Assembly: GCA_029851415.1 (NCBI GenBank)
Contig: CM056742.1
Span: forward strand, 97,446,976 to 97,510,975
Length of the DNA stretch: 64,000 nt
Direction: 5' to 3'
Origin: Eretmocerus hayati
Lineage: Eukaryota > Arthropoda > Insecta > Hymenoptera > Aphelinidae
A model generated the notes under the pieces. That model ran no database searches. It was not told the DNA's origin and saw nothing but the letters and a program-made list of their open reading frames with translations. Both the position numbers and the translations under genes were made by a program. Positions 17,036-58,275 of the stretch are shown here, one piece after another (within the stretch, counting starts at the first letter, position 1; every line of letters begins with the position of its first letter).

Positions 17036-19725
17036 ATGGTGCAATTTAGTTTTGAGATCGATTGAAGTGGATTGAGATTTCGAAGTTTGCAATACTGGGG
17101 AGGAATACCTCAAATCGATTGAGGCAGTGAGGACTGATACTCAGCATTCAATTCGAATCAGGTAAATATCATATGAGGTCTGCAATGCTAAAAATCAGTA
17201 TTGACAGGGATAGAAGCGGATTGAGATCTCGATGTTCGCAATACTGAAGAAGCGTACTGGAATCGATTGAGGCAGATAGGATTCGAAGTCCTCAATACTG
17301 ATATTCAGCATTCCATTCGATTCAGGTGAATATGATATGAGGTTTGAAGGGCTGAAAAGCAGTATATAGACTGATTGAAGCGGATTCAGATCTCGATGTT
17401 TCCAATACTGGGGAGTAGTACTCAAATCAATTCGGGCAGATAGGAATCCAGGTCCTCAATACTGATATCCAGCGTTCAATTGGATTCGGGTAAATAGGAT
17501 ATAAGGATTCCGATGCTCAAAATCGGTATTGAGATCGATTGGAGCAGACTGAGATCTCGATGTTCCCAATACTGAAGAGCAGTACTGGAATCGATTGGGG
17601 CAGATAGGATTCCAAGTTCTCCAATACTGATATTCAGCATTGAATTTGATTCAGGTGAGTAGGATATGAGGTCTGCAATGGTGAAATTCAGTATTGGGAT
17701 CGATTGAATTGGATTGAGATCTCGATGTCCGCAATACTGGGGAATAGTACTGAAATCGAATCGGGCAGATAGGAGTTCAGGTCCTCAATAATGATATCCA
17801 ACATTCAATTCGATTCCAGTAAATATCTTATAAGGTCTGCAATGCTGAAAATCGGTATTGAAATCCATTGAAGCTGATTAAGATCCCGGTGTTTCCAATA
17901 CTGCAAAATAGCACTGGAATCGATTGGGGCAGATGGGATTGCAAGTCCTCAATACTGAGGTTCAGCATTCGATTCGCTTCAGGTAAATAGGATTAAGGTT
18001 CCCGATGCTGAAAATCAGTATTGAGATCGATTGAAGCAAACTGAGATCCCGGTGTTCCCAATACTGAGGGACAGTACTGAAATCGATTCGGGTACATAGG
18101 ATTCCAAGTCCCCAAAATTGATATCCAGCATTCAATCCGATCCAGGTGAATATGATATGAGGTCTGCAATGCTGAAAACTAGTATTGAGATCGATTGAAG
18201 CTGATTGAGATCTTGATGTTTCAAATACTGGGAAACAGTCCTGGAATCGATTGGGGCAGATAGGATTGCAAGTCCTCAATACTAATATTCATCATTCAAT
18301 CCGATTCAGGTCAATATGATATGAGGTCTGCAATGCTGGAAATGAGTATTGAGATCGATTGAAGCGGATTGAGATCTCGATGTTCGCAATATTGAGGAAC
18401 AGTACCGAGATCGATTGGGGCGGATAGGATTCCGAGTCCTCAATAGTGATATTCAGCATTCAATTCGATTCAGGTAAATATCATGTAAGGTCTGCGATGC
18501 TGAAAATCAGTATTGATATCGATTGAAGCGGATTCAGATCTCGATGTTCGCAATATTGAGGAACAGTACTGATATCGATTCAGGTTATTAGGAAATAATG
18601 GCTCCAATACTCACAGTCAGTAGTGAGATCGATCAAAGTGGGTTGAGATCTCGATGTTCCCAATACTGGAAAACAGTACTGGAATCGATTGGGGCAGATA
18701 GGATTTCAAGTCCTGAATACTGATATTCAGTATTCCAATCGATTTCGGACGATGAATAAACTCGTCAGTGCTCATAGTCAGTATTGGGATCTACCGACGA
18801 CGTAGTCTGACATATTGAAATCCCCATTCCTGAACGTTAGTATTGGAATCGATTGAGGCCGATAGAATTCGAGTGGCCGACGCTAGGCGGCGTTTCGATG
18901 ACCATCTCATTTCGCATCCAAATATCATGGGATTGCTTTCTCGCAAGCGATGAACCATCTCTCCTGTTCCTATATAAGACTGATGAGTGGCAGAACCTCC
19001 GAATAGAGTTTAGTTATGTAATGCAATGATATGTAAATGCGATCATGATTAAAATCAGTATTCGATTGTATTGAAATCTCAGCTGTAATGTGAGTGATAT
19101 ATATGTTGAACGTTGATTTGTAATAATGACTGAAAGTTAGTATTGAGGTCGATTGAGGCGGATTGAGTTCTCGATGTTCCCAATACTGAAAAACAGTACT
19201 GGAATCAATTGGGACAAATAGGATTCCAATTCTCCAATACTGATTTCCAGCATTCAGTTCGATTCAAGTAGGTAGGATATAAGGTTTTTAATGCTTACTT
19301 TCAGTATTGAGATCGATTGAAGTGGATTGAGATGTCCCCAATACTGAATAATAGTTCTGGAATCGATTGGGGCAGATAGGATTGCAAGTCCTCAATACTG
19401 ATATTCAGCATTCAAATCGATTCAGATAAATAGGATATAAGAACTCCAATGCTTCTATTTAGTATTGAGGTCGACCGAGTCGGATTGAGATCTCGATGTT
19501 TCCAATACTGGAGAACAGTATTGGAATCGATTGAGGCAGATAGGATTTCGAAATTCCAATTCTGATATCCAGCATTCAAATCAATTCAGATGAATAGGGA
19601 ATGAGTACTCCAATGCTTCTAGTCAGTATTCAGATCGATTGAGGCGGATTGAGATTTCGATGTTTCCATTACTGTGAAACAGTTTCATTGGAATCAATTG
19701 AAGTAGGTAGAACCCTATTATAGCA
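17036..19725. repeat. Satellite array B: ~165-bp monomers
   Basis: GATTGAGATCTCGATGTT or a near copy recurs at about 17222, 17391, 17555, 17720, 17885, 18047, 18211, 18375 and 18539, spacing about 162-169 bp. Each monomer carries CAGTATTGAGATCGATTGA and CAATACTG words that can pair with each other. The array is less homogeneous than array A, is broken near 18760-19140 by non-repeat sequence, and resumes to about 19725. It shares the CAGTATTG word with array A, so the two may have a common origin. Confidence 0.88.
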
Positions 19726-38214: not shown

Positions 38215-38375
38215 CCCTCTGTCAGAGCCAAGTGCTTCGCTCTAATTGCCTGACTAGCCTTGTGAATTTGAATCTTTAATTCTTCTTCAACAGTTTTTCT
38301 CTCTCTTTTTGACCCCCTTCCCCCCTTCTGCACCACCTCTTTCTTCACTCTCTTGCTTGCCATTGCTCTTGCCAT
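38091..38375 (-). CDS. Acidic/basic small ORF with a poly-Asp run
   Basis: A 94-residue minus-strand frame starts MARAMASKRVKKEVVQ and carries a 15-Asp run encoded by a (GAT)n microsatellite (38168-38214). It overlaps the decayed 3' end of the packaging ATPase gene. The N-terminal third is strongly basic and the rest acidic. No known domain is recognised and the microsatellite weakens the case for a real gene. Confidence 0.3.
38168..38214. repeat. (ATC)n microsatellite
   Basis: About 15 uninterrupted ATC units, read as poly-Asp on the minus strand. Confidence 0.95.
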
Positions 38376-38409
38376 GATGACGATTCAGACACGACTGACC
38401 TGATCTCAG

Positions 38410-39098
38410 TATGATGAATTCATTTAGATTACATCTGTAACGACCCAGATCCATTGGATCATATTGTAAGATGGTTCGAAAACCGTATTTGTTATCTTTC
38501 CAACAGGCTGAACATAGCTGTTTAAACTTACAAACGTCATGTCTGCGCAAACGTGATTATTGTAAACGTGCCTCAAGTTTCTCTCATCCTGATTGAATAG
38601 AATGATTGAATTCGCCTGGTCTCTAATCAAATGTTTCGGAATATGCGTGTACGATTGGCATAAATAAAATGAATCCACTCGGTGGTGTCTACCCATACTA
38701 TAATATTCCTCAATCGTTTTCAACTTATCTAAGATGACATCATCAAATAGGAAAATACTATTCTTCAAAGCTTCATTGGGCTTCACTATATCACTATTTT
38801 TTCTGTACATGGAATACTTCATACCCACAGCAGCAAGAGGTTTCATAACACTCTCAAGGAACTTGTATTTGGGCTGTTCAAGAGACTTTGAGTATACGTG
38901 AATGTTGTTGCAATTAGGACCATTGGGACTGACCAGAAGGGAAATCAGGAGCTGGGTTTTTCCGTTGTTGGATGGCCCACATATTATAGCTCTAATGGTA
39001 TTGGGTAAGAGCTTTCCATGACGTCTAGTACTCTGTGTGGGAGCGTCAACATCCACATCAATTATGTGGATGTTGTTGGGTTGTTTGATGAATTCCAT
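38410..39098 (-). pseudogene. Polinton packaging ATPase (A32-like, FtsK/HerA family), frameshifted
   Basis: This protein would drive genome packaging into the capsid using ATP. The Walker A motif GPSNNGKT is at about residue 41 and the Walker B motif SIFLFDDV at about residue 115. A later LCQSYTHIPKHLIRDQANS resembles the sensor/arginine region of the family. The start is the ATG at 39098, 117 bp from the divergent PLA2 gene at 39215. The frame is lost near 38530: the expected C-terminus (CSACWKDNKYG and GRYRCNLNEF) continues in another frame of the same strand down to about 38410. A hairpin-forming inverted repeat (39050-39076) lies in the first codons. About 220-230 residues is normal for the group. 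Confidence 0.88.
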
Positions 39099-39214
39099 GT
39101 TTGCATGAGTCTTTCCACACTACTCCTGACTCAATCAATTCTCGGATCGGGTATAAATACCCACACCAACACCGTGATGCTTCAGTTGCATTCCATGTTT
39201 GACATGGAGAACAT
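39099..39214. promoter_or_regulatory. Divergent promoter region with palindromic TATA
   Basis: Between the diverging ATPase and PLA2 genes lies GGGTATAAATACCC (39149-39162). It is nearly self-complementary, so it could act as a TATA box in both directions. Its role is inferred from position. Confidence 0.5.
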
Positions 39215-39544
39215 GTGTCATCAATGCATTCATTACGAGGAGCAGGTCTTGTCAATTCCACCATCAACAGCCTCCCTTTCGAACTAAATCTTCCAGGCTA
39301 TCAATTTTGTGGTCCAGGAACTAAATTATATAAGAGGCTTGCTCGAGGTGATAGGGGTAGGAATGAGCTCGACAACTACTGTATGAAGCATGATATAGCT
39401 TATGCAAAAAGTAAAGACATCAAGAATCGACACGTTGCTGATCTTGCCCTGCAGCTTGGGGCTGAAAAACGTGTAAAGGAAGGAGGTTTCTTGGAGAGGT
39501 TAGCTGCGAAAGCAGTTGCAGCAACCATGCGTGCCAAGCGATGA
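39215..39544 (+). CDS. Parvovirus-type phospholipase A2 domain protein of the Polinton
   Basis: The 109-residue product has LPGYQFCGPGTKL, the calcium-binding loop of parvoviral VP1-type PLA2, followed by LDNYCMKHDIAYAK, which holds the His-Asp catalytic pair. The C-terminus is basic and helical. In parvoviruses this domain lets incoming particles breach endosomal membranes, and PLA2 domains are known from some Polinton-like and adintovirus genomes. The frame is intact with an ATG start; whether it is still expressed is unknown. It is the first gene of a plus-strand cluster (PLA2, pX-like, protease, penton-like) with short gaps, opposite the ATPase. Confidence 0.9.
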   Translation: MSSMHSLRGAGLVNSTINSLPFELNLPGYQFCGPGTKLYKRLARGDRGRNELDNYCMKHDIAYAKSKDIKNRHVADLALQLGAEKRVKEGGFLERLAAKAVAATMRAKR

Positions 39545-39550
39545 TTTGGA

Positions 39551-39890
39551 ATGGGTTCGAAGAAGCGTAAGACTGTGTTGAAGAGGGTGAAAAGGAGGGG
39601 GGCTCTCGCTGGGGTGGATATGCGTACGCTTGCTCTGGCAAAACGAGGAGGTTTTTTTACCAGCAATCCTACCCATCCTAGCAGTACTTGGAGCATTGGG
39701 TTCATTAGCAGGGGGCGCTGCAAACGTTGCAAAATCCATTAGTACTATGCGCATGAATAAGAAGCAATTGGCTGAATTGAGCAGACATAATCTTGCATTA
39801 GATGCCAAAGGTCGGGGATTGCGGTTGAGTCCATCGTCTTGCAGCAACCAGTGTGGAGGGGGTTTGAGGAAAAAAAATCTCAAAAATTGA
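39551..39890 (+). pseudogene. pX-like small capsid-associated protein, frameshifted
   Basis: A basic start (MGSKKRKTVLKRVKRR) leads to a frame break near 39650 in a T-run. In the next frame FLPAILPILAVLGALGSLAGG gives a hydrophobic Gly/Ala/Leu segment, followed by a Lys-rich helix and GLRLSP. The pattern basic, then hydrophobic, then amphipathic, then a Gly-rich tail is known from small Polinton and adintovirus virion proteins compared with adenovirus pX/pVI. It starts 7 bp after the PLA2 stop and probably shared its transcript. Confidence 0.65.
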
Positions 39891-39911
39891 AAGGGAGGGG
39901 GAAGAAAAAAA

Positions 39912-40256
39912 GTGAAAGGTACGTCGGGGAGTCAACTGTTGAGGTTAGCTCACAACATACCTCACTTTAGAGGTGTATTTTCACTAACTGAACTCCTCCC
40001 TTCACCTGCGTGGGAAACCGAAGCGGCAATAGTGAATCTAGGTGATGCACACTGGGTTCCCTACATGAAAAGAGATCGTTTTATTCATTTCTTCAATAGT
40101 TTTGGAGATTTGAGACCATCACGTGATTTGGTGAATTATTGGGAGAAGAGCTCTCCAGATTGTCAAATTGTCTACAACAGAAGTCAGCGTCAAACCTTTC
40201 GTCAGAGAAATTGCGGTCCTCTGAGTGTGAAATTCTTGCGGGAACATCTGCTATAA
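39912..40256 (+). CDS. Adenain-type cysteine protease of the Polinton
   Basis: Such proteases cut virion precursors during maturation. The catalytic His lies in GDAHWVPYM, an acidic/Asn partner region follows in FFNSFGD, and the catalytic Cys lies in QRNCGPLSVKFL, preceded by the family's Gln for the oxyanion hole. IPHFRGVF near the start is typical of Polinton members. The frame is open for 115 codons with no clear ATG upstream of the conserved part; the frame opens at 39912, so the original start may be lost or a little upstream. The C-terminal end is at the normal position just after the Cys region. Confidence 0.85.
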   Translation: MKGTSGSQLLRLAHNIPHFRGVFSLTELLPSPAWETEAAIVNLGDAHWVPYMKRDRFIHFFNSFGDLRPSRDLVNYWEKSSPDCQIVYNRSQRQTFRQRNCGPLSVKFLREHLL

Positions 40257-40312
40257 GAGGTGTTGCGTGATTGACTTTGACCCAGTTGCTTATTACAAAT
40301 CACTTGTGAAAG

Positions 40313-40845
40313 ATGTCTGAACAGTTTATGGTCTCAAGTACCTCATCGCACATTGATCAGATCATTAGGCTTAGAGAGCAGTTGTGTCTCAATAAGCTCC
40401 ATGAGCTTGGTCTGGTTGATTTAACAACTTTTCACGCGATCCCCAATGTTGATAGGAGTAATAATACCTTCTACTGGGGTGATAAGGAACTACAGATCCC
40501 AACAGGACCTTATAAAATAGAAGATTTGGAACGTTATTTGCAGGGAGACATAGCTCTGAGAGTTCCATCTAGTGCACACACTGAGGAAGAGGAGGATAAA
40601 TCTATACCACCAGAATTGAGTGGAAAACGAATTTTCCTGCGTGTGAATAAGAACACCTTACACTGTGAGATCTACTCATATCACGACATCGATTTCTACA
40701 ATTCAAACAATATAGGTTAACTTTTGGGCTTTGGTAGGTGGTTGTCTCTACCAGCTCACAGATGGCACAAGTCTGACCACATTGTGAAAATTAGTCGAGT
40801 TAATATTGTGCGGGTGAAGTGTAATCTGATTAAAGGTACCTTAAT
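40313..40845 (+). pseudogene. Penton-like minor capsid protein, interrupted and truncated
   Basis: NNTFYWGDKELQIPTGPYKI and the later RVNKNTLHCEI are typical of the conserved Polinton/adintovirus penton-like single-jelly-roll protein, which forms the capsid vertices. An in-frame TAA at 40718-40720 interrupts it. The same frame then continues with LLGFGRWLSLPAHRW and ISRVNIVRVKCN, again family-like. At about 40845 the similarity ends at a palindrome followed by a TCA microsatellite, so the C-terminal part is missing. Normal members are around 250 residues. Confidence 0.75.
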
Positions 40846-40853
40846 CAGATTAC
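40811..40853. repeat. Palindrome around GGTACC at the penton break
   Basis: GTGTAATCTGATTAA and its inverse flank a GGTACC centre. The penton-like similarity ends here and a (TCA)n run follows directly, so the palindrome marks a rearrangement point. Confidence 0.85.
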
Positions 40854-40855
40854 AC

Positions 40856-40889
<34 letters not shown>
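40854..40889. repeat. (TCA)n microsatellite
   Basis: About twelve TCA units. Confidence 0.95.
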
Positions 40890-41478
40890 TGATTATTTCA
40901 ATCAAAGAAGCTTCAGTATTTGGGGTACTCTGATCTCATTCAGTTTTTGGTAGGCTCGTATTCATAGATGCACATGTGGTTGAAGGTTATCGGGCTTCAG
41001 TAGTTGGTGTATTTGATTCAGTTTTTGGTGGGTTCAGATGGCTGGAAATTGATTTCTCAGAGCACTTAGGACCTTTTATTTCAACAAGATGATTTGATTC
41101 AGAAGCGGCTCGATGATATCTTATCTCTCTTGAGCCGACAGATCGTAGCCGGTTTTTCTGGGTCTCTCACGCCAGCAGTGAAATACTGATATAGTCAGAT
41201 CTGATTTAGCTTTTGAAGGGCTTAGATTTATAGATGCACTAGTATTTGTGGGTTCTGGGGCTTCAGTATTTGCTTGATCTGATTCACATTTTGGTGCAGA
41301 GTGGTTGGTAGCGAAATGTAATGAAGTTCTGAAACGGATTAAGAGGCGGTGCCAACTTTTTTGAAATTCCTAGCATTTTTGTTGATACTAGAAAACTTGG
41401 AAAAAAAATCACTGCTCATCCAATTCGGTTCGAGTACTTGTTTTTGGTGAACTCATTCTATCCATCAGCATTGACATG
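40890..41478. other. Gene-free stretch with loose repeats
   Basis: The phrase GATTCAGTTTTTGGT and a TTCAGTA(T/G)TTG word recur at roughly 70-80-bp and wider spacing between 40910 and 41300. No gene is recognised where a major capsid gene might be expected. Confidence 0.45.
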
Positions 41479-41925
41479 CTATGAACGTCCATTGGGAGAT
41501 GGCTCGGTAGTTGCTCTGCTGGTAGATGTTGTAGAATCTGCCTGGTTTTCTCCTCCTGCTGTTCCTGAACTTCCAATGTCATCGTCTTGCTCGTCCTCAT
41601 CTTCACTCTCGGATTCCTCGTCAAGCGGAGAGTAGAACTTTAGGCGATGGTATTTCCCGGTTTCCACAGCGCGGCAATACAATTTATTTTTTTGATTGAA
41701 TTTCTTCAACCAAAATTCTCATTTCCTGAGGATGAGCTCCAATGTCGGCTTCGGCACGTAGACGAGAATATTTTTGTTTCTCTCGTTAATGAGAATTAAT
41801 GAAAACGCTTGTCCGTATTCTGTATTCCTAATCGACGCGCTTTTGATTTGATACCGACGCGATGACAACAAATTGCAAACTCGAACTAACGGAGGATATA
41901 AGGTGTCCAAGCTCGTGACACGCAA
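41479..41925 (-). pseudogene. Unknown Polinton protein with acidic tail, one nonsense codon
   Basis: Two minus-strand frames (41925-41719 and 41709-41479) lie in the same reading phase, separated by a TGA at 41719-41721. The first half contains RRYQIKSASIRNTEYGQAF and ILVYVPK, a beta-rich pattern I have the impression of seeing in uncharacterised insect element proteins. The second half has a Cys and basic residues, then a run of Asp/Glu/Ser (ESESEDEDEQDDD). A compact domain plus an acidic tail would suit a nucleic-acid-binding protein, but that is a guess. Confidence 0.45.
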
Positions 41926-43648
41926 ATCTGTATTCCCATATGATTATTTGGATTCGTTTAACAAACCCAAGTCTCCAGTCAATCCTAGCAAGAATGATTT
42001 TTATAACATACTGAATGACTCACATATTTCTGATGCTGCTTATGAACATGGGGCTAGAGTATGGAACACATTTGGGTGTAGCAATTTAGGTGATTGTAGT
42101 AATCTGTACCTAAAGATAGATGTATTGCTCCTGTGTGATGTTTTCACAAATTTTAGGAAGACTTTCCATCAGAGTTTTGGTCTTGATCCTGCTCACTATC
42201 TCTCACTTCCTGGTTATTCTATGAGTGCTATGCTGCATCTAACGAGAGTAGAATTGGAATTATCAACTGACATTGATGTTTTAATATTGTTCGAGAGAAT
42301 GTTACGAGGAGGAATTTCCCAAAGCTGCCTTCGTTATGAGTAGGCTAACAATATTTATCTACCAAATTATGATCCTAACAAAGAAACAAGTCACATTGCG
42401 TACCTGGACTGCAACAGCCTCTATGGAACAGCAATGCAATGGCCTCTCCCTTATGCAAATTTTAAATGTCTAGAAAATCCATCTGATTTCGATGTCACTG
42501 CTATAAGTGATGATTCGAACATTGGATATGTGATTGAGTGCGGCCTTGAATATCCAGAAGAACTACACGCTTTGCATGGAGACTTCCCATTCTGTGGAGG
42601 AAATATGATCCCTCCGAATGGTTATTCCGATAATGAAAAACTTTTGTTGACTTTATTAGCCAAAGAAAACTATGTAATCTACTATCGTAATTTGAAGCAA
42701 GTCATTGAACATGGACTCATTGTGTCAGAAACCACTCGCGTACTTCAATTTGATCAGAAGCCGTTTTTGAGACCTTTTATTGAAAAAAAACATTTTTTAC
42801 TGTCAGAACGCTAAAAGTCCATTCGAAAAAGCCCTCTATGAATTAAATATCAATAGTTCGTTTGGTAAAATGATAGAGTCTGTTAAAAAGAGGAGGACGG
42901 TCTTGCTCAAAAACAAGAGGGAAGGGCGATACGCAGTTCAACCTTTTATTAGTCACCCTCGCTTTCAGAGACTAGTTATATTCGACAAGAGCTTTGTTGC
43001 TCTAGAAATGGAGGCCTTGAACGTATTGTGCAATGTTCCCACATTTGTCGGAGTGTGCATTCTAGAAATTTCGAAGCATATAACGTATTCTTTCCATTAT
43101 GATTTTATGATGAAATTGTTTACAAAAAATCCACAAGATTGTTTATTGTGCTACGGGGACACCGACTCTTTTGTATATTATTCAAAAAACATTCATTTAT
43201 ACGAAGATTTGTTGAAACCTTATTGTGAATTTATTTTGACACGTCAGATTATGCACCCAACAACCCGTACAACATGCCATTGCTCAACAAAAAAGTTCTA
43301 GGAAAGTTCTCGGATGAGATGCATGGAGTACCGATAAAAGCTGCTGTATTCATAAAATCCAAGCTATATTGTATCGATGTTTTGGACTCTGAAAAATGTG
43401 TTGGAAAAGGAATCACTAAATCTTCATTGAGAAATAAGCTCAAGTTTTCAGATTCCAAAAATTGTTTATTCAATCAAGACTCAATGTACATGAATCAATT
43501 CACTTTGAGATCAGAGAAGCATACTCTGTATTCCATCCGCCAGCGCAAGCTAGCTCTCTCACCAAGCAATGATAAGAGAACTATTCAGAGCGATCATATA
43601 CACACATCTGCGTATGGAGATTATCGTTTGGAAATAAACGAGCTCTGA
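41885..43648 (+). pseudogene. Protein-primed family B DNA polymerase, N-truncated and broken
   Basis: This enzyme copies Polinton DNA from a protein primer. Visible in order are the end of the exonuclease domain (NLYLKIDVLLLCDVF near 42098), motif A YLDCNSLYGTAM near 42400, motif B NINSSFGKMIES near 42850 and motif C YGDTDSF near 43155. The gene is broken by a stop at 42341-42343, a frameshift in an A8 run near 42785 and another between about 43230 and 43275. It ends at 43648. Full Polinton polymerases exceed 1000 residues; the N-terminal half, including most of the exonuclease, is absent. The start overlaps the previous minus-strand gene by about 40 bp, so a deletion joined them. Confidence 0.9.
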
Positions 43649-44362
43649 CCAAGTATATCAGAGCTCTCGCACCGAGAAGTGTTTTTCATACCATACCACT
43701 CTACCAGCACCTGATTTCGTTTTCGCTTCAGAATTCTTTCGACAAGAAACACGTTTGGATCTCGCACGTGAGTAAGCTCTGCTTTGTAGAAAAATCCAGA
43801 AATCTTTTCTCTCTCATAATCTTCAAGCAGATACGTGGGTGAGTTGGTTTGCTGCACTCGATATATAGTAAACGTTTCTGCACGCCAGTTTGGCAGATAT
43901 CCCTTGTCAAAGAGAGACTTGTATTTGCTCACTCTCACAACATCACCGACTTTGAACTTATATTTTCTCGGCATGCTCCTCGGCGCATAAGCTGAGGATA
44001 AGAGGTCTGCTTCAATTCGACCTTGGTTCTTAGTTTTTTGCCAAACCTGGACTGGTTTCATCTGAATCGTGCGATGGACTGATCCATTGTAGGATTTCAG
44101 AACATCTTGTAAGATATCGATCCAAACGTATTTTCCTCTCAACGAGAATGATTGATAAATTTTTGATCTCAGAGTCCTAATTACTCGTTCACATATACTA
44201 GCTTTTAAATTACTGTAGGTGGAATAAATATCGATATTATTGTCGTCTCTCACCAATTCCAAGAAGTCTGTGTTATGAAATTCTCGACCTTCGTCGACTT
44301 GTAAATTTTTTGGAACGATTTTTCCTCTGTCTGATATTTTTGTGAACGCAGCCGTGACTTGT
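43621..44362 (-). pseudogene. Polinton integrase (DDE, retrovirus-like) with chromodomain, N-truncated
   Basis: The enzyme would insert the element and generate the 6-bp duplication. From about 44362 down: LQVDEGREFHNTDF holds the second catalytic Asp, STYSNLKASICERVIRT holds the catalytic Glu, then an SH3-like/C-terminal region (KFKVGDVVRVSKYK), and finally VERILKRKRNQVLVEWYG, a chromodomain-type end. The first catalytic Asp and the N-terminal zinc finger are missing: a TGA lies at the upstream limit and 44363-44600 shows nothing clear. The 3' ends of this gene and the polymerase overlap by 28 bp, tail to tail. Confidence 0.88.
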
Positions 44363-44602
44363 CAGTCAAATCAGTATTTTTGAAAAGATATTTCAAACAA
44401 CCAACAATCTGCAAACTTGGAATAGTTCATCTCAGTCTAGGTGATCTGGAATAGTTGGAAATCAACGCATCGGAATCTTGTTGGCCTTGTTGTGAAGTCA
44501 GTCATATCAGCTTCATAATGGTTTTCGGAATTGGATACGAAGGTAAGAGGTTCATGGGTTGAAACTTCTCCATTTAAGTTAATATCATGTTGGCTCTTTT
44601 AG
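44363..44602. other. Gap between integrase remnant and module array
   Basis: No gene recognised. The missing integrase N-terminus should lie here but only broken frames were seen. Confidence 0.4.
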
Positions 44603-44953
44603 AGCATTGAGAAATATTGGAAGCAATACGTTTCAAAAAGCAGAAAGACTACCTCGCAGCTTTTAATCTTTTTCTGATGATAGAATCCAATTTAGACACT
44701 AGCTTTGACTTTTGTTGAGTTTTTACTACCACTAGTTTCTATTACGAAACAACAAAATATTTCAAGAAGTTACAAGATAGTACATGGGAATTGGACTATG
44801 AAAGAACTAAATTCCATCCGGATCTAAATACTCTATTTTATTCAAAGGGAGACATTGTTGAAATCGTAAATTTCATCCATGAATTTAAATATATGATCAA
44901 ATAAATGTACCTAGTAGAAGTCAAAATGGAAAAAACTGATTAATTATTTCTAG
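44603..44953 (+). pseudogene. Tandem module 1 (decayed)
   Basis: Module starts are defined by an AG (splice-acceptor-like TTTTAG at 44602). The coding similarity is clearest at about 44750-44905, where LQDSTWELDYERTKFHPDL and FYSKGDIVEIVNFI match the conserved end of modules 3 to 7. A stop lies close to the module start. It is the first of seven modules in the right third of the Polinton; no known domain is recognised. Confidence 0.55.
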
Positions 44954-45309
44954 TTCAGTTCTCTGCATTGGAAGGATGCCTTTCTAATGTGAAACTATAT
45001 ACTGACGAGAGAATGAGCTATTCCGAAGCCTTCTACGATTATCTAACAAATCATTCAGAATTTGATGACTCGTGAACCTTTCATTTGAACTATCAAACAA
45101 ATGTATTTTCTTCTTCATTCTATTTTGATAGAGTACTATGAGCTTCAAGCAATTATGAAATTGATTGTTCAAGGTGATATGTTGCTAGCATAGTGGGTCC
45201 TTATTATTTCGAAAGAAAATATTCATGAAATTTTTGATTTTATATCATTTTATGGTTTTTGCTTTGAGCGCGCGTAATTGGTAGACCTAAAAGTAAAATA
45301 TTCTTCTAG
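44954..45309 (+). pseudogene. Tandem module 2 (decayed)
   Basis: Begins after TTTCTAG at 44953. Only the conserved tail can still be read (KENIHEIFDFISFYG and then VDLKVKY near 45215-45295), with stops between. Spacing to the next module start is 356 bp. Confidence 0.45.
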
Positions 45310-45314
45310 ACCAA

Positions 45315-45635
45315 TTGAACATCCTTGTGAGATTGCTGAACGCTCTAATGGATTCCAACGATGAGAAACATGGCTCTCTTGAACCAGTCTTCGATAAATT
45401 TAAACGTTTTGAGTTGTACTTAGATGACAGAGTAATATTTTCCCTAGTTTTTGGGACAAATTATTATTGGACTTCGGAAAATTATGATTTCCAAATGTTC
45501 AAAAACAGTGGTTGGATAGTAGATGAAGATTACTTATTTCGTCCGAAATTCACATCCACATTCTATTATCGAGGATCTTTGAAAGAAATTGTGAAAATTT
45601 TGCGAGGGAATTTCCACTGCATGACATTTATTTGA
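45315..45635 (+). CDS. Tandem module 3
   Basis: A 106-residue frame after TTCTTCTAG (45309). The first ~25 residues (ILVRLLNALMDSNDEKHGSL) are helical. The middle contains ELYLDDRVIFSLVFG. The end has WIVDEDYLFRPKFTSTFYYR followed by GSLKEIVKILRGN, the module's conserved tail. A stop at 45633-45635 cuts off the usual VVKLK end, which continues in frame just after it. No signal peptide or transmembrane segment is evident. Function unknown. Confidence 0.55.
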   Translation: MNILVRLLNALMDSNDEKHGSLEPVFDKFKRFELYLDDRVIFSLVFGTNYYWTSENYDFQMFKNSGWIVDEDYLFRPKFTSTFYYRGSLKEIVKILRGNFHCMTFI

Positions 45636-45665
45636 GTTGTGAAACTAAAACCTAACCATTTACAG

Positions 45666-46024
45666 AGCAAATGAAAATCGTGTGTCGTATTGCAGAATAC
45701 ATTGAGTCGTACTTCTCTAACAGCAAATTTCAACTAGAAGACACATTCACAGAGTGAGAGCAGAACTAATCATGTTTCGACTCAAGCAAAATAATAACAA
45801 TGATATACAATAAACATCCATGGGCTCACCATAATAACCCTCTGCAAGAACTCAGAAATATTTTTTGGGAAGTTGATCCGAATGACTCAAACTTTAACCC
45901 GGATTCATATTCAATCTACTAATGCTAGAGGAAATATTCATGAAATTATAGCTATTCTTGATCAGGATATGCCTTGTATCTTAAATGTGCAATTTGTGGA
46001 ACTGAGAGCGAAAAATTTTGACAG
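45666..46024 (+). pseudogene. Tandem module 4 (broken)
   Basis: Begins after TTTACAG (45665) with a phase-1 start reading QMKIVCRIAEYIESYF. Stops and frameshifts follow. The tail is recognisable as FWEVDPNDSNFNPDS, then GNIHEIIAILDQD and VQFVELRAKN near 45860-46015. Confidence 0.5.
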
Positions 46025-46353
46025 GTGAAAGAGAGATAATGAGGGCACAGCTACAAGATGGGGATTTTGATAGTATTTCAGAGTTGATCAGAGATGGAGA
46101 AATAAATTTCACATATATTCATTCAATAATTTTTAATGTTAAAAGGACTCGAAAAACTAGTAAAAAATTTCGTAAACTCAGAAAAAGTAAATGGAAAGTC
46201 GATCGGAATGCATGTGAATACAATAGTTTAATTTCAAAAGATCATTACAGAAGAGGTGACATATATCAAATATTATCATTTTTAGGAGAATATAGAGATC
46301 GTATGACGAATGTGCAATTAGTCCACTTGCGTCCTAGAATAAGAATAGTATAA
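46018..46353 (+). CDS. Tandem module 5
   Basis: An intact 111-residue frame, starting just before or at TTGACAG (46024). Order: a helical start (EREIMRAQLQDGDFDSISEL), a central IIFNVKRTRKTSKKF rich in Lys/Arg, then WKVDRNACEYNSLISKDHY, RRGDIYQILSFLGEY and NVQLVHLRPR. This is the best-preserved module and defines the family pattern: W-x-V/L-D, C-x-F/Y-N-P/S, Y-x-R-G-D-I, F-L, V-Q-x-V-x-L. I do not recognise it as any named domain. Confidence 0.6.
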   Translation: MTGEREIMRAQLQDGDFDSISELIRDGEINFTYIHSIIFNVKRTRKTSKKFRKLRKSKWKVDRNACEYNSLISKDHYRRGDIYQILSFLGEYRDRMTNVQLVHLRPRIRIV

Positions 46354-46383
46354 GCTAATGACACATGATAAATAGGTAAGAGC

Positions 46384-46737
46384 ATGCTGATTTTTTTAAC
46401 GGGTCAAAAAGAAATGTTGAAGGAGATGTTCAATTATCGTGAATTCTATTACACTTACTGTCTTATGTCATGGGAGATTGATCATATTTTCGTACATCCA
46501 TTTGTTTTCAATGTCGAGCGTAACTGTAAGAATATTAGTTTTGGAAAATTGAAAGATAGGATTTGTACAGATTATACGTCAAAATGTAGTTTCAATCCTT
46601 TATTCTCATGCGATTATTTCATAAGAGGAGATATAAGACATGTCTTGAACGGGTTATTTGACAACTTTCATATCATCAAGAACCCTCAAATCGTACAAGT
46701 GAAATTATATATACCAGAAATTAGATGTAATGCATAA
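46384..46737 (+). CDS. Tandem module 6
   Basis: A 117-residue frame aligned with module 5 from GQKEMLKEMFNYREFYY onward. It has the central FVFNVERNCKN, then CSFNPLFSCDYFIRGDI and PQIVQVKLYI. At the module start the acceptor-like AG has become CG (AACGGGTCAAAAAG, about 46400). The first residues before that point are probably not part of the module. Confidence 0.55.
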   Translation: MLIFLTGQKEMLKEMFNYREFYYTYCLMSWEIDHIFVHPFVFNVERNCKNISFGKLKDRICTDYTSKCSFNPLFSCDYFIRGDIRHVLNGLFDNFHIIKNPQIVQVKLYIPEIRCNA

Positions 46738-46760
46738 AATTTGTAAATCTTTCATTCCAG

Positions 46761-47083
46761 AACAATTACAAGCAATTGAATCAGTCCTGGTCGAGTCGAA
46801 CGAAGAGCACCTCAAAGCTCTGTGAAAATTTCAAGAAATTGAAAGGAAAATGCATAGAACTGTCATTTCTCCCATCATTTTTGAGAGTAACTGCGTATTT
46901 CCTATGTTCCTTGATTTCTTAACCAGTGAATTGATTGTAGATAGAGATAAATGTGAATTCAACCCATCTCGTTCAATTTCTCATTACTATCAAGGTAATG
47001 TTGAAAAAACCATAAATTTTCTACATATATATCGCTCTTATATCCAGGATGTACAAATTGTTGTATTAAAGAATAGAAAATGA
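46761..47083 (+). pseudogene. Tandem module 7
   Basis: Begins after CATTCCAG (46760) with QLQAIESVLVESNEEHLKAL, then a stop. The same frame continues as 46850-47083 with PIIFESNCVFPMFLDF, DRDKCEFNPSRSISHYY, QGNVEKTINFLHIY and VQIVVLKNRK. It is the last module; the Polinton right terminal repeat starts 500 bp further on. Confidence 0.5.
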
Positions 47084-48250: not shown

Positions 48251-48564
48251 TACAATTCGTAGTCTGGAATGTTGTCTGTAGCGTGGTTGGGGCTGGAATG
48301 GTCGAATCGAGGGGCACGGGAGCAGCCCACGAAGCAGTAAAGTTCAGATACTCTATACGAGGTGAATGTCTGGATGTAGAGTTTCCGATATTTCGTCTCC
48401 ATAAAATCCCCCGACAATTGGTTCGTCTTAATATTCTTTCAGATAATACATGACTGGATGATTTCACTAATTTTAATGACAGTATACATTTCTGATAACC
48501 AATTGGGTTAATATCCTTCTTCAAACACCCCTTTGACCCAGCTAACACGAACTTGATCACCTAC

Positions 48565-49410
48565 AGTACCCACGAAAATGAATGGAACACGGGTTCCTTT
48601 ACCAAAACAGCGATCACTCGGATGTCGTTGGGTGTACGGCAATTTTACAGAAAGAATTTGAAAGATGAGAAAAACATTCATCAGTGCATGTCTTCCAGAA
48701 TTTTTTCCATTCCAAAACTCACATTTTTTATTGGCTCCGAAAAGGGAAAAATTACATTTCAATCAATCATCGATCATTTATCGGGAAATTAAGATAGCGT
48801 GAAAATACCCCCGGGGTCTTGTAGCTCTCCCTAAGACCTTCAAAATCGTACTTTCATACATCAATCTACGGTTTTTTGCACCCGAGATACGAGCGATCAA
48901 TTGAGAGCAAGTTCATAGGCATTGATGGTAGCGGGGATAAAATGAAGTATGGATCAGTTATGTCTTAGAACGCACTCGAAACGACCTCAGACAGCTTGAA
49001 GAAGACAAAGCTCATACCTCTAGTTCACTTGTACCCTTGACCCCCACCAACTTCTCTTTGCCAGATCACTCGTAACTCTAGTGAAAAAACCCGAAGAGTA
49101 ATGTATAAAAGAAAATTTTGAAGGTCTTGAGAGGAGCAACAAGATCCCGCAAGGTTTTTTGCGCTATCGTGATTACTCGATAAATAATCGATGATTGATT
49201 CAAATGAAAAATTCATCACTTTGCGGAGCCCATTGGAACTATGAACTTTGCGGCAAAAAATATCTCAAAGGACATGAATTGATAGATTTTTCTTCTCATC
49301 TTTCGAATGTTTTCTCGAAAATTGTCGTAGATCCGAGGACGTCCAAGTAATCGCTGTTTCAGTGGAGGAATCCGTGTCCCATCCATTTTGGCGAGTACTG
49401 TGTCTTGAAT
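48565..49410. repeat. Imperfect long inverted repeat, arms ~340 bp
   Basis: 48565-48905 and 49070-49410 are inverted copies with a spacer of about 165 bp. Paired phrases include GGAACACGGGTTCCTTTACC (48581) and its inverse near 49365, and TCAATCATCGATCATTTATC (48762) with a partner near 49185. No coding function is recognised. It may be a foldback-type element or an old inverted duplication. Confidence 0.65.
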
Positions 49411-49560
49411 TTTGATTTCTTCCGAACATACTGCCGATCAATAGTTAAAATTTATTCCTGAATCTGCTTCTCATTTCCTTGTATCACATTTACTGGCTCA
49501 TTACCAATGTTACGATGTTTCCTCGAATTATTTATCCAAGAGCTCAGGGAGAATCTTTAG

Positions 49561-50154
49561 CTATTTGTCACTCCCTTGTGAGCTCAACTTTCCCCACATT
49601 AGATCCTCAATACTCCTATTGGATCTCTGATAGATGGCGCAGTGAATAGTCGATTCGGTAGAGTATAGATTGATTTCGTACCTCTTCATGAGATTTTGGG
49701 AATGAGAGTTGTGAATTTCTTTGCCTTCATCTTCTTGAAGATTTTCTGGTACACGCCGTTTTCGCAAAATTGATTGCATCGCTGCAGTCACATCTTGCCC
49801 CGTTTTACTCATAATGGGAACGGCCCATGTAAACTTTGGATAATTATAAATCACAGTCAACATGTACATTCGGGAACAAGATGAACTGCAATGAGATGAC
49901 GGTTAGTGACCGTTTGAGATCTGTCGCCTCCCTCGCACTCATGGGATAGCCTATTAGATGCGAGTGAGATGGGAGATCTCGAATGGCCGCTGACCGTCAT
50001 CCCATCGCAGTTCACCTTGTTTCCGAGTGTACTTGCGATTTTTATGCTGTTTTGTAAGAGGTATCATCTCGACCAAATCAGCTTGCCAAGTTCCATCTAA
50101 ACCACGTATGATGATCTTTTGATGAGGATAATTACGCCTCGCCGGCTTGTGCAT
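49561..50154 (-). pseudogene. Second Polinton integrase fragment, split by a MITE
   Basis: On the minus strand HKPARRNYPHQKIIIRGL and GTWQADLVEM (first catalytic Asp) open the core at about 50154-50085. After a 160-bp insertion the frame resumes with MLTVIYNYPKFTWAVPIMSK, then NLQEDEGKEIHN (second catalytic Asp). The region that should hold the catalytic Glu reads IYQRSNRSIED, so the Glu appears lost. This copy covers a part of the integrase missing from 43621-44362, but lies outside the Polinton's terminal repeats. It derives from a different element. Confidence 0.85.
49868..50027. mobile_element. 160-bp MITE inside the integrase fragment
   Basis: Ends ATTCGGGAACAAGATGAACTGC and the inverse of CTCGGAAACAAGGTGAACTGC give ~40-bp terminal inverted repeats. 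TGTAC flanks both sides (49863-49867 and 50028-50032) as a 5-bp duplication. It interrupts the integrase frame between ...KY and MLTVI. Confidence 0.8.
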
Positions 50155-52755: not shown

Positions 52756-55019
52756 TCTATGGAAAAATTATACGTCTATCTGTAACACATTTGAATCAGT
52801 ACGCATTAGTACAGATATTTATAAATCTGAGCCCTATTCGCGTGTGTCTGATACTTTTGAGACACAAATGATTTTAATATCGTGCATGTTTGTAGTGGGC
52901 CGAGACGAAAAGATATTACGTGTGCGATGTATGGATTTCTACGCGTATAACCGGGTGATTTTACTTTGAAAACCCGAACCGGCATCAGACCACTGCGTAA
53001 TGTCGGCCTCTCGTGAGTCTTAACCCCATCCTGGGTACAGAGACGATCGGTCCGGCTTGCCCAATTGGGTCTGATGCATTCACTTTTGCCCACGTTTACG
53101 TAAAAATATTAATTTCTGTCCCGCCCTGGATCATAAATAGTCGCCAAGTTGACTATTTATCCCGATCCAAAGAGGGTCGTGATATTTTAATCCGCGTGCT
53201 CGGCGAAGCGGTCCACTTGGATATTCGAAATTTCAACTTACATTTGGTCTTGGGGAGACCTGGGTACGCTCTCGATACAGGCGTATAGGTTTCAGCTTGT
53301 TGTAGTCTGCTGTCGTTCCAGCGCAAGTGACCGCGCACTCGTCCGTCGGCTAACTATATGCCTGAGCTCGCCAGATCCCCACTTCAAGACCAATTTCGGC
53401 GGCTCGACTGGACGATTTCATAGACACGCGTATTCATGCATACTAAGAGAAATTTTACCGCAAATTTGAATTGATTGGTGCGCTATTAGTATTGATATAT
53501 CGGTGATCGTTCGTCGTGGAAAGGGTGTAAAATATAGCTGACCTGACACATATATATCGAGTTTCCCAATGGTCGTGTAAAAGCAGTTTCTAAGTATTAG
53601 TACATTGATTAATTCACAATAATTCACCATACAATTGTTAGTATTAGTATTACCACACCGTACATGCATGAATCTACTAACACGACTGGTCTGATGGTCA
53701 TCTGCGCAAGTGGCTGATTGGAAATTCTTATTTCTAAAACTTTAACATCATCTGGAAATTGCAGACGTTGCATAGTTCCCTTAATTTATTGGAGTCGAAT
53801 CTCATTCATGAAGATTGATGGAGATAAATTAAAAAAGACAACGAAACAATTTTCAGATCAGACCATCGGATCGTGTAACAAAAATTCTCGTGATTTTACT
53901 ATAAAATGTTAACATTTCACTATACTTTGGGTCTTAAAATGATATGATGCACAATAATTCAAGAAATAAAAGTACATCCATTTGGTGATTTCTGGATGAA
54001 CGATTCAGCTACCCTAATTCTGGATCGGTAATGTGAAGCAAAGTGCTTCGAATGTATGAGAATGATGAATAAATCATTACTGAAAATAACTATAAGCGAT
54101 CTTGGGTCATCAATCGACCCACCTCTCATACGTTTCTGATGAGTAAAATGACGTTATATTTGTATACGAGATAAAAAAATCTATTGTTATATGGGGTCGT
54201 TAATTGGTTTTGGTTTGGAGGACTAGGACGGGAAATGATTTTCTATAATCATAAGCAGTTTCCTTGGAAGGATTCCATAATTCCCAGTATTTAGGGTATT
54301 TATGATTCCAAATCAAGATTTTTACTTATGATAACAACAATAATCTCTAAAATTCATTACCAATAAGAAAAAATAAGTAGGCATGATTTAATCATATAGA
54401 ATATTTCCGATGTTCAAGAATGTAATTCCAAGTGTCTCTATTCCAAGAAAATTTGATTCTGGTCGAATCCAAGTACTTGCCATTACTTTTTATTGACGGG
54501 CGGGAATGAATTCATAAAATTGAGATGAGAAAAAATTGGAACTCCAGTTCCCCCAGCCCGTAGTGTGGCTGATAAGACAATTTACGACAATTATCAATGG
54601 ATATTTATTGAAATGATATACCAAGTTCGGTGTCAAAAACTGAAATCTCGAGCAAATTCTACAACTTCACGTATAAGCACCAACTCATCAGCTAACTAAC
54701 CATGCTTCTGGATACATATCCACAGCTAAAAGGTCGACTGACGAGCTTTTTTTTGGGTTGTGCCATTTTGGCGAAATTTTCTGGTTTCGAGATCCTCTCC
54801 GGAATCAGCATCGTAAGAGTTCTCTAAAGAAATGTGTTGTGGTCTTACCGAGAATAAATTTATTCTACTTGCCAATGATTAGACGAGTTCTCATTATGAA
54901 TATCTGATCGCAGGGATGCGGTTAACCACCTAGAACTACTTCCTCTCGGTTCACTGGGTTTGACGTTCTCAGCTACTGATTGATGACCTGTGTCTCTCTT
55001 GCATATAGGACTTATTTCA
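52756..55019. other. Gene-free stretch
   Basis: No gene recognised. A small palindrome, GGATCATAAATAGTC with its loose inverse, lies at 53130-53165. Confidence 0.4.
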
Positions 55020-55310
55020 CCATTCACCGACAATTCGTTTTCAACGCAGCCCGAATGATCTGGATTGTAATTCACCGACAATTCGTTTTCAACGCAGCCC
55101 GAATGAACTGAATCACAATTCACCGACAATTCGTTTCCAACGCAGCCTGAATAAACTGAATCGCAATTCACCGACAATTCGTTTTCAACGCAGCCTGAAT
55201 GAACTGAATCGCAATTCACCGACAATTTGTTTTCAACGTAGCCCGAATGAACTGAATCACAATTCACCGACAATTCGTTTTCAACGCAGTCTGAATGAAC
55301 TGAATCTGAA
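55020..55310. repeat. 48-bp minisatellite, ~6 units
   Basis: TTCACCGACAATTCGTTTTC recurs at 55023, 55071, 55119, 55167, 55215 and 55263, exactly 48 bp apart. The minus-strand reading is a 16-residue repeat (VENELSVNCDSVHSGC), which artificially lengthens the LINE reading frame by read-through into flanking DNA. Confidence 0.95.
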
Positions 55311-55396
55311 ATAGCCTCACATGCGAGAACGTCATGAGTAACAATCTGTAACTGATTACTAGTCACTCCGAGTACCCGGGTTTTATTTACAAAGGC

Positions 55397-58062
55397 CCTT
55401 TTCCCCCATTGAATCCTGAGTTTTTTGACCTTTGTCTCATCATGAACTATGGCTCTTGGAGTGCAAAAATCTAATTTTAGGACCCATCTGTAGTAGTCCA
55501 TCTGAATCTTTTCTAGCTCTTGCTGCTCCACCCATCCCCAAATTTCCACACCATATTCCATGACACTCCTGACTAAATACTCGAAAAGCTTCTTTCTCCT
55601 CCTAAAATCATTCTTACAAAATCTCTCCCCAATTCCCCAAGTCTTCCTTGCCGCTACAATGCCTTTTCTTTGTCTGTCAGCTATGTGATGTTTGAAGTTT
55701 CCTGCACTGTTGAAGATAAATCCCAGATATTTGAAAGTTTTCACCTCTTCGAGTTGCTCTTTGTCCCATTTCCACTTCTCCAATCTACTATTTCTCCCCC
55801 TATTGAACACCAAGATCTTGGTTTTCTCAACACTCAGTACTAACGATCTTTCTTTCAAAAATTTTCTTAGCGTATCCAACATATCCAACATGGCCTCCCT
55901 ATTCTCTGCCAGTAAAACTAAATCATCTGCATAGGCCAGGGACCAAATTCTCTTGTTTTCTATCTTCACCCCTCCTATATTCCTCTCCTCAAATTCTTTC
56001 TCCAGTCCTGCTATGTAGATGCAGAAAAGTAGAGGACTTAACACACACCCCTGCCTCAACCCCTTGCCTTTCCAAAACTCCTCTGTCAGCTCCTCTCCTA
56101 CCCTCACCTTTACCTTTGTCTCTTGATATAATTCCTTGATTCTTTCTATCAAATATCTACTGATTCCTGCCTTTTCCATAATACTCCACAATTTTTTCCT
56201 ATCCACTGAATCAAACGCCGCTTTCAGGTCGACAAAAGCCGCGTACAATTTTTTCTTTTTCAATTTTGCTCTCTGCACCAGATGATTCAGGATGTAGATA
56301 TTATCTATTGTTGACCTGCCTTTTCTGAATCCAGCTTGCCCTTCTGGTAATAAGCCAAGCATCTCCACTTCCTCCTCTAGCTTTCCTCTGATAATTTCGC
56401 AATACATTTTTAGCACGGCCGTAAGCAGCGAGATTCCTCTGTAATTATTAGTTACTTCCTCGTCACCCTTCTTGAAGAGGGGAACTATGATGGCAGTCAT
56501 CCAATCCTCAGGAATTCCTTCTCCTTGCCACACGTCTTCCAAAATTCTGATTAACTCCCTTTTCAACCCTTGCCCTGCGTAGATCCACACTTCACTAGGA
56601 ATCTCATCTATACCAGTTGCTTTCTTCTTTCTGAGTGATCTCCAAGCTTTTTTGATATCTACTGATTCCAGCTGCTCCTTTTCTTCTTCCCCTTCTACAG
56701 TTCTTCTCGCCTCTCCAGTAACTTTGGTGTCCGAGCCCTCAAGTAAATTCCTGAAGTGTGTTCTCCATTGCTCATTTCCAATATGATTCTCCACTCTCCT
56801 TCTCTTCACTCTGTACTTGTTCAGGAATTTCCACACGTCGCTTTCATTTTTTATCTGTTTCAGTTCTTCTTCTTCCCTCTCTTTGAATTCTTGTTCCTTC
56901 CTTTTGCATAGATTTCTCCATTCGTTCCTCTTCTTCAGATAAACCTCCTTCTGTCCATATCCCTCTTTCCATTTTCTGTAAGCTATTCTGCTGATCCTTT
57001 TCGATTTTCCACACTCTTTGTCCCACCATCTTTTCATTCCCAGTCTCCACTTCTTCCTTGTTCTTGGTTCCCTTGTATTAGCGGTTTCCCTTATCAGCTG
57101 TTTCATCATTTCCCACCTCTCTCGAACACTTCCCTCCAGTTCATTCATCTCACTCGTTGCCTCAGAAAAGTTCTGAATGTCTTCAATGGTCCATGTGAAT
57201 ATCTTCTTTCTAGGTCTGTGCATACCCTTTATCCCTGAGTCCTCATCCTTCCAAACCATCTCCGTTTGTCCAGACTCTATGAATACACTGATTGGCGCAT
57301 GGTCTGATTCTATTCGCTCCTCCACTTCGAATCTTCCTACTGACTCCAGCGTTTCACTGTTGACAATGACATAATCAATGACTGTGCTCCCTCTAGCACC
57401 GATAAATGTGTATTCACCCTCCTCATCCCCCTCATGAGATCCATTCAGAATTTTCCAACCTTTCCTACTCATAAAATTTACCATATTCTTACCTTCGTTA
57501 CTGCATGTCTTATCCTTACTTTTCCTCCTTGCCTCTTCACCATCATTCACAACATGACCTTCCTCTCCGATTCTTATGTTGAAGTCTCCTCCAATAATGA
57601 GCCTTCCCTCTTGGAGGAAATCCAAATCCTCCCAGACCTTCCAAAACTTTTCTGCTTCGCCTGCGTTGTACACTGACCACACATTCCATTTACCTTCCTC
57701 TGAACTGATAGCTGTTCTTATCAAACCTCTTTCTACTTGTTCCACTGCTTCAAATCCGCTGCTGCACCACTCCTTTTTCACTCCTATTAGGAAACCTCCC
57801 TTTGCTCTTCCTTTCCTATGTTCCCTTGTTGCTGGGATGATGTGCCAATGGAAGCCGCCGGGCAGTTTACTCTCTAGACCTTGTACATCCTTGCTTTCCA
57901 CCCACGTCTCCGACAAGCTGACAAAATCTGATCCTTCTATGAATTTCCACACATCCAGATCCTTGCTCATGAGACCAGCAATATTCCAGAACGTAAATTT
58001 CCTTACCTGATCTACATACTTAGACCCATATACTTCCCTTTGGGTTGCATCTCTCCATTCCT
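55397..58062 (-). pseudogene. LINE ORF2: AP endonuclease and reverse transcriptase (inverted segment)
   Basis: About 858 residues from the ATG at 57970 belong to the element; the remaining 178 residues of the open frame are flanking DNA. The frame is also open upstream to about 58062 with FTFWNIAGLMSKD, the usual endonuclease opening, so 57970 is probably an internal Met. Endonuclease motifs: SLSETWVE near residue 20, GGDFNIRIG near 126, SDHAPIS near 222. Reverse transcriptase: GYRGISLL-like NNYRGISLL, YAAFVDLKAAFDSVD, GLRQGCVLSPLLF and the catalytic SLAYADDLVLL near 675. No RNase H is visible. ORF2 lacks its C-terminus because of the 5' inversion, so it cannot make a full protein. This general type is common in insects; the clade was not settled. 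Confidence 0.92.
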
Positions 58063-58065
58063 GGT

Positions 58066-58275
58066 CTAAACAAAATTTGTACCATCATTATCCCCTTGCC
58101 TTTGCTCTAGCGTCCTCTTCATATCGATTTCCATTTTCAGCTTTTCTTCCCACCTTCTCCACCCACCTTTGTACCACACCTTGCCTTGACCTATCTTCAG
58201 ATTCCATCCCTCGCTTTTCTTTTCCTTTACCCATTTGTTGATTTCTTCTTGCACTTTTCTTTCTTCGTATGACAA
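58066..58275 (-). pseudogene. LINE sequence upstream of ORF2 (inverted segment)
   Basis: A 69-codon, highly charged frame (VQEEINKWVKEKKSEGWNLK) lies upstream of ORF2 and ends in another reading phase just before it. It is the 3' part of ORF1 or the N-terminal part of ORF2 after a frameshift. Its 5' end is cut at the inversion joint near 58280, so more upstream sequence is missing. Confidence 0.6.

Follow-up and report, generated by a model that had tools for sequence, protein, structure and literature searches.

A Polinton array of seven paralogous terminal exons, predicted to share one coding mini-exon, in the genome of Eretmocerus hayati

Introduction

A stretch of 64,000 nucleotides from the genome of Eretmocerus hayati (G000:C2:97446976-97510975, referred to as the window) contains, inside a Polinton, seven tandem modules of about 357 bp, each related to the others and each with a stop at its end. 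This arrangement raises the question of how seven such short reading frames could be expressed from one place, and the initial annotation of the window had left the choice between separate small genes and alternative terminal exons. The second choice fits the data described here, as a coding mini-exon with one strong splice donor precedes the modules and almost no space is left between them. We propose, with a probability of roughly 0.82, that the array is one Polinton transcription unit in which a single mini-exon would be spliced to any of the seven terminal exons.

A coding mini-exon precedes seven in-phase acceptors

The array and the exon that precedes it are arranged in the window as follows:

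44603-47083, + strand: seven tandem modules, unit of about 357 bp (from the sequence)
44518-44542, + strand: coding mini-exon with ATG, eight residues (MVFGIGYE) and one base, phase 1 (from the sequence; present in 34 of 41 arrays)
44543-44602, + strand: intron of 60 nt from the mini-exon to module 1
44603-44940, + strand: module 1, acceptor kept, early break in the reading
44954-45299, + strand: module 2, acceptor kept, broken reading
45310-45635, + strand: module 3, acceptor kept, open, with its end about 13 codons earlier than in relatives
45666-46021, + strand: module 4, acceptor kept, broken reading
46025-46353, + strand: module 5, acceptor kept, intact reading
46403-46737, + strand: module 6, open reading, acceptor dinucleotide lost
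46761-47083, + strand: module 7, acceptor kept, single early stop and open after it

The AG positions first reported (44602, 44953, 45309, 45665, 46024 and 46760) proved exact, with each exon beginning one base later. The sixth site, described as CG near 46402, is indeed not an AG; it reads GG at 46401-46402, where relatives have AG, so that the acceptor is lost in this copy, and another AG three codons downstream is a chance occurrence. The mini-exon of the window is 25 nt long and is followed by the donor GTAAGA. Seven related copies had been described, and seven are present, but not all of them are open here: apart from the short module 3, stops are hit after 2, 40, 30 and 21 codons in modules 1, 2, 4 and 7, respectively, and module 5 is the only one intact together with its acceptor. 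The window copy is dead, its promoter having been removed by a deletion of about 8 kb and most of its modules being broken. The common first exon at 44518-44542, the decay of the copy and the loss of the promoter had all escaped the initial annotation.

A search of the source genome (692 Mb, 17 contigs) with module 5 as query yielded 403 candidates, of which 150 were scored. Array places were counted from these scored matches at a threshold of E 1.5e-14 or better, which gave 66 places, the window included, with the hit at each taken to be module 5 itself. Forty-one of the 66 (40 plus the window) were read with their surroundings and were divided, by order of similarity to module 5 and by sequence features, into group A (n = 11, window included), group B (n = 26) and group C (n = 3), with one array left unplaced (L025). 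Not all of them are independent: a single palindromic locus accounts for both L030 and L031, one on each arm, and L042, L043 and L050 form a set of close copies. Places L009 and L035 are the same locus, with an intact array.

At that locus (L009) the mini-exon reads ATG-GTT-TTT-GGA-ATC-GGT-TAC-GAG-G, followed by GTAAGT, and lies just before the first acceptor. When up to four mismatches were allowed and GTRAG was required, 34 of the 41 arrays gave a mini-exon, which encodes exactly MVFGIGYE in 23 and lacks the ATG start in three. Among the representatives of groups A, B and C, third codon positions of the mini-exon differ at 4, 3 and 5 of 8, first and second positions at 0 of 8 each, and the intron beside it is much more diverged than the mini-exon itself. 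Three GTRAG motifs occur on the coding strand of the array in L035, and GTAAGT is found only at the mini-exon.

The phase common to the modules, noted from the window alone, held across the 41 arrays, in which 247 of 286 module positions have a phase-1 AG at the expected codon or the next. At other offsets, AG was counted 4 (-2), 10 (-1), 12 (+1) and 108 (+2) times out of 286, the last figure being high because a second AG stands beside the site in modules 2, 3 and 4. For modules 1 to 7, the in-phase AG was present in 32, 35, 36, 37, 39, 35 and 33 of the 41 arrays (of 40 for module 2), and the first full codon after the acceptor is Q in most modules. Because all seven acceptors are in phase 1, the last base of the mini-exon would complete the first codon of each module. 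The distances from each stop to the next first full codon in L009 (11, -50, 9, 5, -13 and -10 nt) place the acceptors at or inside the end of the preceding module and thus leave no room for promoters or first exons. The mini-exon and all seven acceptors occur together in 18 of the 41 arrays; in 12 of the 41, all of group B and 11 of them with the ATG, seven open frames are present as well.

Upstream of the mini-exon, a TATAWA motif followed about 29 nt on by TCAGT, which we take to be an arthropod-type core promoter, was found in 24 of 34 arrays (20/24 in group B, 4/8 in A and 0/2 in C), the same pattern appearing at 0.7% in mononucleotide shuffles. At the other end, AATAAA stands at or just past the module 7 stop in L035, L016 and L020, the three arrays with an assigned module 7 that were examined; L035 has it also at two sites within modules.

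The modules form one protein family maintained by selection

The relatedness of the modules, first seen by their shared pattern, was confirmed in the intact array, where 15 of 21 pairs in L009 matched at E < 0.001 (BLASTP against the seven-sequence database; best 4e-16) and six pairs were weaker, up to 5.6. A profile built from 18 module sequences scored all seven L009 modules at E 4e-40 to 5e-35 and the next reading at 0.09, values that are inflated as seven of the 18 profile rows come from L009's own array (as L035). The readings share a C-terminal pattern of about F-x-K-L-x-x-S-x-W-x-V-D ... F-N-P ... Y-x-R-G-D-I-x-x-I-x-x-F-L ... V-Q-x-V-x-L, and are otherwise strongly diverged, module 6 of L035 being 15-32% identical to modules outside the module 6 group.

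In a tree of 21 module proteins each module position formed one group with support of 97-100; the program flagged long branches, and the order of branching among positions is not settled by this tree. The groups hold A and B copies for all seven positions, and C copies for modules 2, 3, 4 and 6 as well, which indicates that seven distinct exons are older than the divergence of A and B and have kept their order since.

Open modules were found at 208 of 287 places (161/182 in group B, 42/77 in A, 4/21 in C and 1/7 in L025), under length limits that we set ourselves, and the count for group B drops from 161 to 156 of 182 if the acceptor must lie within one codon. Once saturated pairs had been removed, the ratio of nonsynonymous to synonymous substitution rates (dN/dS) between A and B averaged 0.10-0.23 per module, at a mean dS of 0.9-2.3. 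The ratio was 0.26-0.38 within B and 0.37-1.0 within A, the latter as expected because group A copies are decaying.

The family was described at first as unrecognised, and it stayed so: no significant match was obtained in Pfam, in PDB or among 5.8 billion proteins, and the searches made found no module relatives outside the source genome. The modules have a confident predicted fold without a clear match. The results thus ran opposite to those that the initial annotation had named as fatal to its proposal, as no known family appeared, related copies exist and the change between them is mostly synonymous.

A model for expression of the array and its alternatives

In the mechanism that we propose, a promoter with a TATA box and a TCAGT start about 29 nt on would produce an RNA with a first coding exon of 25 nt, which would supply the start codon and the eight residues MVFGIGYE and end in phase 1. 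The spliceosome would then choose one of the seven acceptors for this single strong donor. Each acceptor would open a terminal exon that runs for roughly 107-140 codons to a stop of its own. The outcome would be seven small proteins with a common N-terminus from one promoter, and a polyadenylation site after module 7 would probably be common to all.

Several observations weigh against this model. An internal start is possible for modules 3, 4 and 6, since a methionine stands at residue 2 in 31 of 32 copies of module 4 and in 22 of 32 of module 3, and at residue 4 in 27 of 31 of module 6. The promoter pattern is missing in both group C arrays that bear a mini-exon and in four of the eight of group A, the window included. 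The donor count is not independent, since the search required GTRAG, and 7 of the 41 arrays gave no mini-exon. Finally, the complete arrays number only 12 of 41 and come from group B alone, several being close copies or parts of the one palindrome (L030/L031).

Concerning function, a host-interaction role is plausible for the predicted proteins in view of their number, their divergence and their apparent lineage restriction, and the chance that the seven handle different host factors seems to us slightly short of even. A role within the element is nearly as likely: the architecture would be as proposed, and the proteins would serve replication, packaging or regulation of the element's own genes instead of acting on host factors. 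All seven modules are kept in order in A and B under purifying selection, as essential parts would be, and nothing links the proteins to defence. This possibility, which deserves serious though lesser weight, has to be set against the strong divergence of the modules, the failure to find relatives outside the genome and a dosage of one or seven according to the family. Strong divergence, lineage restriction and variable dosage are more typical of accessory genes.

Much less probable is that every one of the seven modules is a small gene by itself, served by a promoter of its own or by an internal start. Each module does have its own stop, and most copies of modules 3, 4 and 6 have a methionine at most four residues from the acceptor; nevertheless, the space between modules is almost nil, with some overlaps, and separate genes would leave the kept in-phase acceptors and the conserved mini-exon unexplained. 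Moreover, in 27 of 29 open copies of module 1 the first methionine is residue 25, and in 22 of 25 of module 7 it is residue 30; an internal start would therefore lose the first helices of these proteins.

It is very improbable that the arrays as a whole are a decayed repeat without function. The state of the window copy, with its promoter absent and most modules broken, and the dN/dS values within A would be in line with decay, but the 161 of 182 open modules of group B and the low ratios both between A and B and within B are not. Least probable of all is one multi-domain protein with the modules as serial exons of one message, a reading that agrees with the identical phase at each module start and conflicts with the stop at each module end, with gaps too short for introns and with the lack of a strong donor inside the array, where neither of the two other GTRAG motifs of L035 is GTAAGT.

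Single-module genes and the origin of the array

The model of alternative terminal exons draws further support from independent two-exon genes of similar plan, which contain a single module or a module-like exon:

L009:7521-7061, - strand: opposite-strand gene after the array, with mini-exon MMEIITHS (24+1 nt, phase 1), intron of 77 nt and terminal exon of 119 codons
L058 and L057, gene 1: mini-exon MFSIGRD, intron of 80 nt, phase 1; module-profile E of 1.7e-10 (L058) and 2.8e-10 (L057) for the terminal exon
L058 and L057, gene 2: mini-exon MYQQNEHQL, intron of 90 nt, phase 1; opposite-strand-profile E of 6.8e-14 and 2.8e-15 for the terminal exon

As far as the stretches reach, the acceptor region of the opposite-strand gene was present in 19 of 41 arrays (AG in 18) and its mini-exon in 16 (ATG and GT in 14). 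A search with this gene returned 94 matches, among them places elsewhere with 29-38% identity, of which L057 and L058 were read; both are Polintons, with an integrase directly after the gene. The intron lengths of 80 and 90 nt are those of L058. The terminal exon of gene 2 matches the module profile weakly (0.0005 and 0.001), and it is only through this second L057/L058 gene that the opposite-strand gene is tied to the modules.

All these genes have in common a coding mini-exon of 22-28 nt, a phase-1 intron of 77-90 nt and one terminal exon, against seven in the array. The presence of single-module genes in L057 and L058 therefore suggests that the plan of mini-exon, phase-1 intron and one terminal exon predates the array. 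The array would most simply have arisen from a two-exon gene whose terminal exon was multiplied by duplication in tandem.

In the same two Polintons, a ribonucleotide reductase small-subunit gene lies at L058:3110-4156 and L057:3592-4637 (PF00268, E 8.5e-114 in L058); its reading is open in L058 and fragmented in L057. At L012:2401-8101, a near-perfect palindrome contains two head-to-head arrays of seven modules each. Its centre, near 5250, falls within the opposite-strand gene, and it may be a recent inverted duplication or else a product of joined ends or of replication.

The carrier element

Next to the array, the window holds the following remains of its element:

41852-43648, + strand: putative DNA polymerase B of the protein-primed type, in broken pieces, with 83-88% identity to its counterpart next to the L056 integrase
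43621-44361, - strand: integrase, C-terminal part only with the N-terminal part missing, 50% identical over 226 amino acids to the L057 integrase
44361-44363, no strand: deletion junction, with about 8 kb of the standard element, including the array promoter, missing

Two polymerase pieces have sub-threshold matches to Pfam DNA_pol_B_2 (E 0.013 and 0.0059) and two others have none. The integrase piece of the window gave no significant Pfam match by itself and is named after its L057 relative, which matches rve at 2.8e-12 and has a weak chromo domain. Homology to L056 on the integrase side stops at 44360 and homology to L013 and L014 on the array side begins at 44364. Integrase and array are 2.4 kb apart in the window, whereas 26 of the 40 linked pairs have them 9.5-10.9 kb apart.

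Among the best 100 of 150 integrase matches, 40 of the 52 close integrases (at least 60% identity) have an array within 30 kb and 12 do not, in comparison with 1 of 48 for integrases of lower identity. In all 40 linked pairs the integrase is upstream and on the opposite strand. Conversely, 40 of the 66 array places have an integrase within 30 kb, among the integrase matches listed. Toward the array, L009 carries in order a gene with a PLA2 domain, an A32-type ATPase, a gene of 400 amino acids and a coiled-coil gene with its own intron. The packaging ATPase matches Pox_A32 at 1.9e-9 in L009 and at 7.5e-8 in the other Polinton of the window. The integrase and ATPase genes and the constant linkage place the array in a Polinton, as had been proposed.

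The intron of the coiled-coil gene (L009:2700-4017) begins with GTATGT after ...GTAGTCG and ends in the acceptor ...TGTATAG, in phase 1 by eye; the gene itself has only a sub-threshold match to a baculovirus envelope protein in Pfam (E 0.0089).

Other features of the window

Immediately before the polymerase and integrase genes of the array element, 38293-40900 is occupied by a second Polinton family, with an A32-type ATPase, a PLA2-domain gene and, by eye, a protease-like reading; its ATPase and PLA2 gene (38.4-39.6 kb) share about 40% and 50% identity, respectively, with their L009 counterparts. Beyond the array, integrase fragments at 48391-48588 and 49537-49791 on the - strand, 30% and 36% identical to the window integrase, are remnants of further elements. 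Large satellite-like tandem arrays extend over 12338-19701, with periods near 160-165, 249 and 491-496 bp and sharing CAATACTG-like words. A reading of 1074 codons at 54860-58084 on the - strand resembles a non-long-terminal-repeat retrotransposon (endonuclease and reverse transcriptase by eye), with six 48-bp repeats at 55022-55306 in its end part.

Comparison with known systems and biological meaning

Adenoviruses are relatives of Polintons, and the reading frames of their E4 region have start codons of their own and are mostly unlike each other. A common donor with several alternative acceptors is also what the array presents, here by sequence only; in contrast to E4, the common exon of the array codes and holds the start codon, and its seven alternatives are paralogous. 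In E4, as described in excerpts of PMC9499273, one donor is joined to several acceptors that lead to different reading frames, and some of the small proteins act on host defences. The array unit would, by analogy, most simply be an E4-like splice switch; the modules had no Pfam match above cut-off and no PDB match, and no E4 protein was compared with them directly.

The rep genes of ichnoviruses, according to excerpts of PMC1539012, are intronless and contain a 540-bp element found singly or multiplied. They resemble the array in that a gene family whose function is unknown has multiplied within an element of viral origin, whereas the unit of the array is about 357 bp and depends on an intron, by a comparison of descriptions. 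Membership in the rep family was rejected on these two differences. In the literature on splicing and accessory genes of Polintons and adintoviruses, a description of such an array was not found among the matches listed, nor in the excerpts of PMC11071296 and PMC11071308.

More tentatively, Polintons in this genome may use a portable plan in which the coding mini-exon gives exchangeable terminal exons the same N-terminal tag; one lineage may have turned this plan into a seven-way splice switch, whose repertoire of paralogues, chosen by acceptor, would handle different host defence factors.

Polintons are usually characterised by their virion and replication genes, and the expression of their accessory genes is little known. 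The array offers a concrete case in which one promoter would give rise to seven paralogous proteins by the choice of splice site, under selection in old groups, in relatives of adenoviruses, and its modules are a further protein family whose confidently predicted fold has no clear match. Gene finders miss such genes because the main exon has no start codon, and small Polinton genes could be recovered through the clue of an ATG exon of 22-28 nt with a phase-1 acceptor that mostly precedes Q. If the model is true, an E4-like strategy would have been built from paralogous exons within the branch of the virus world that is regarded as the source of adenoviruses.
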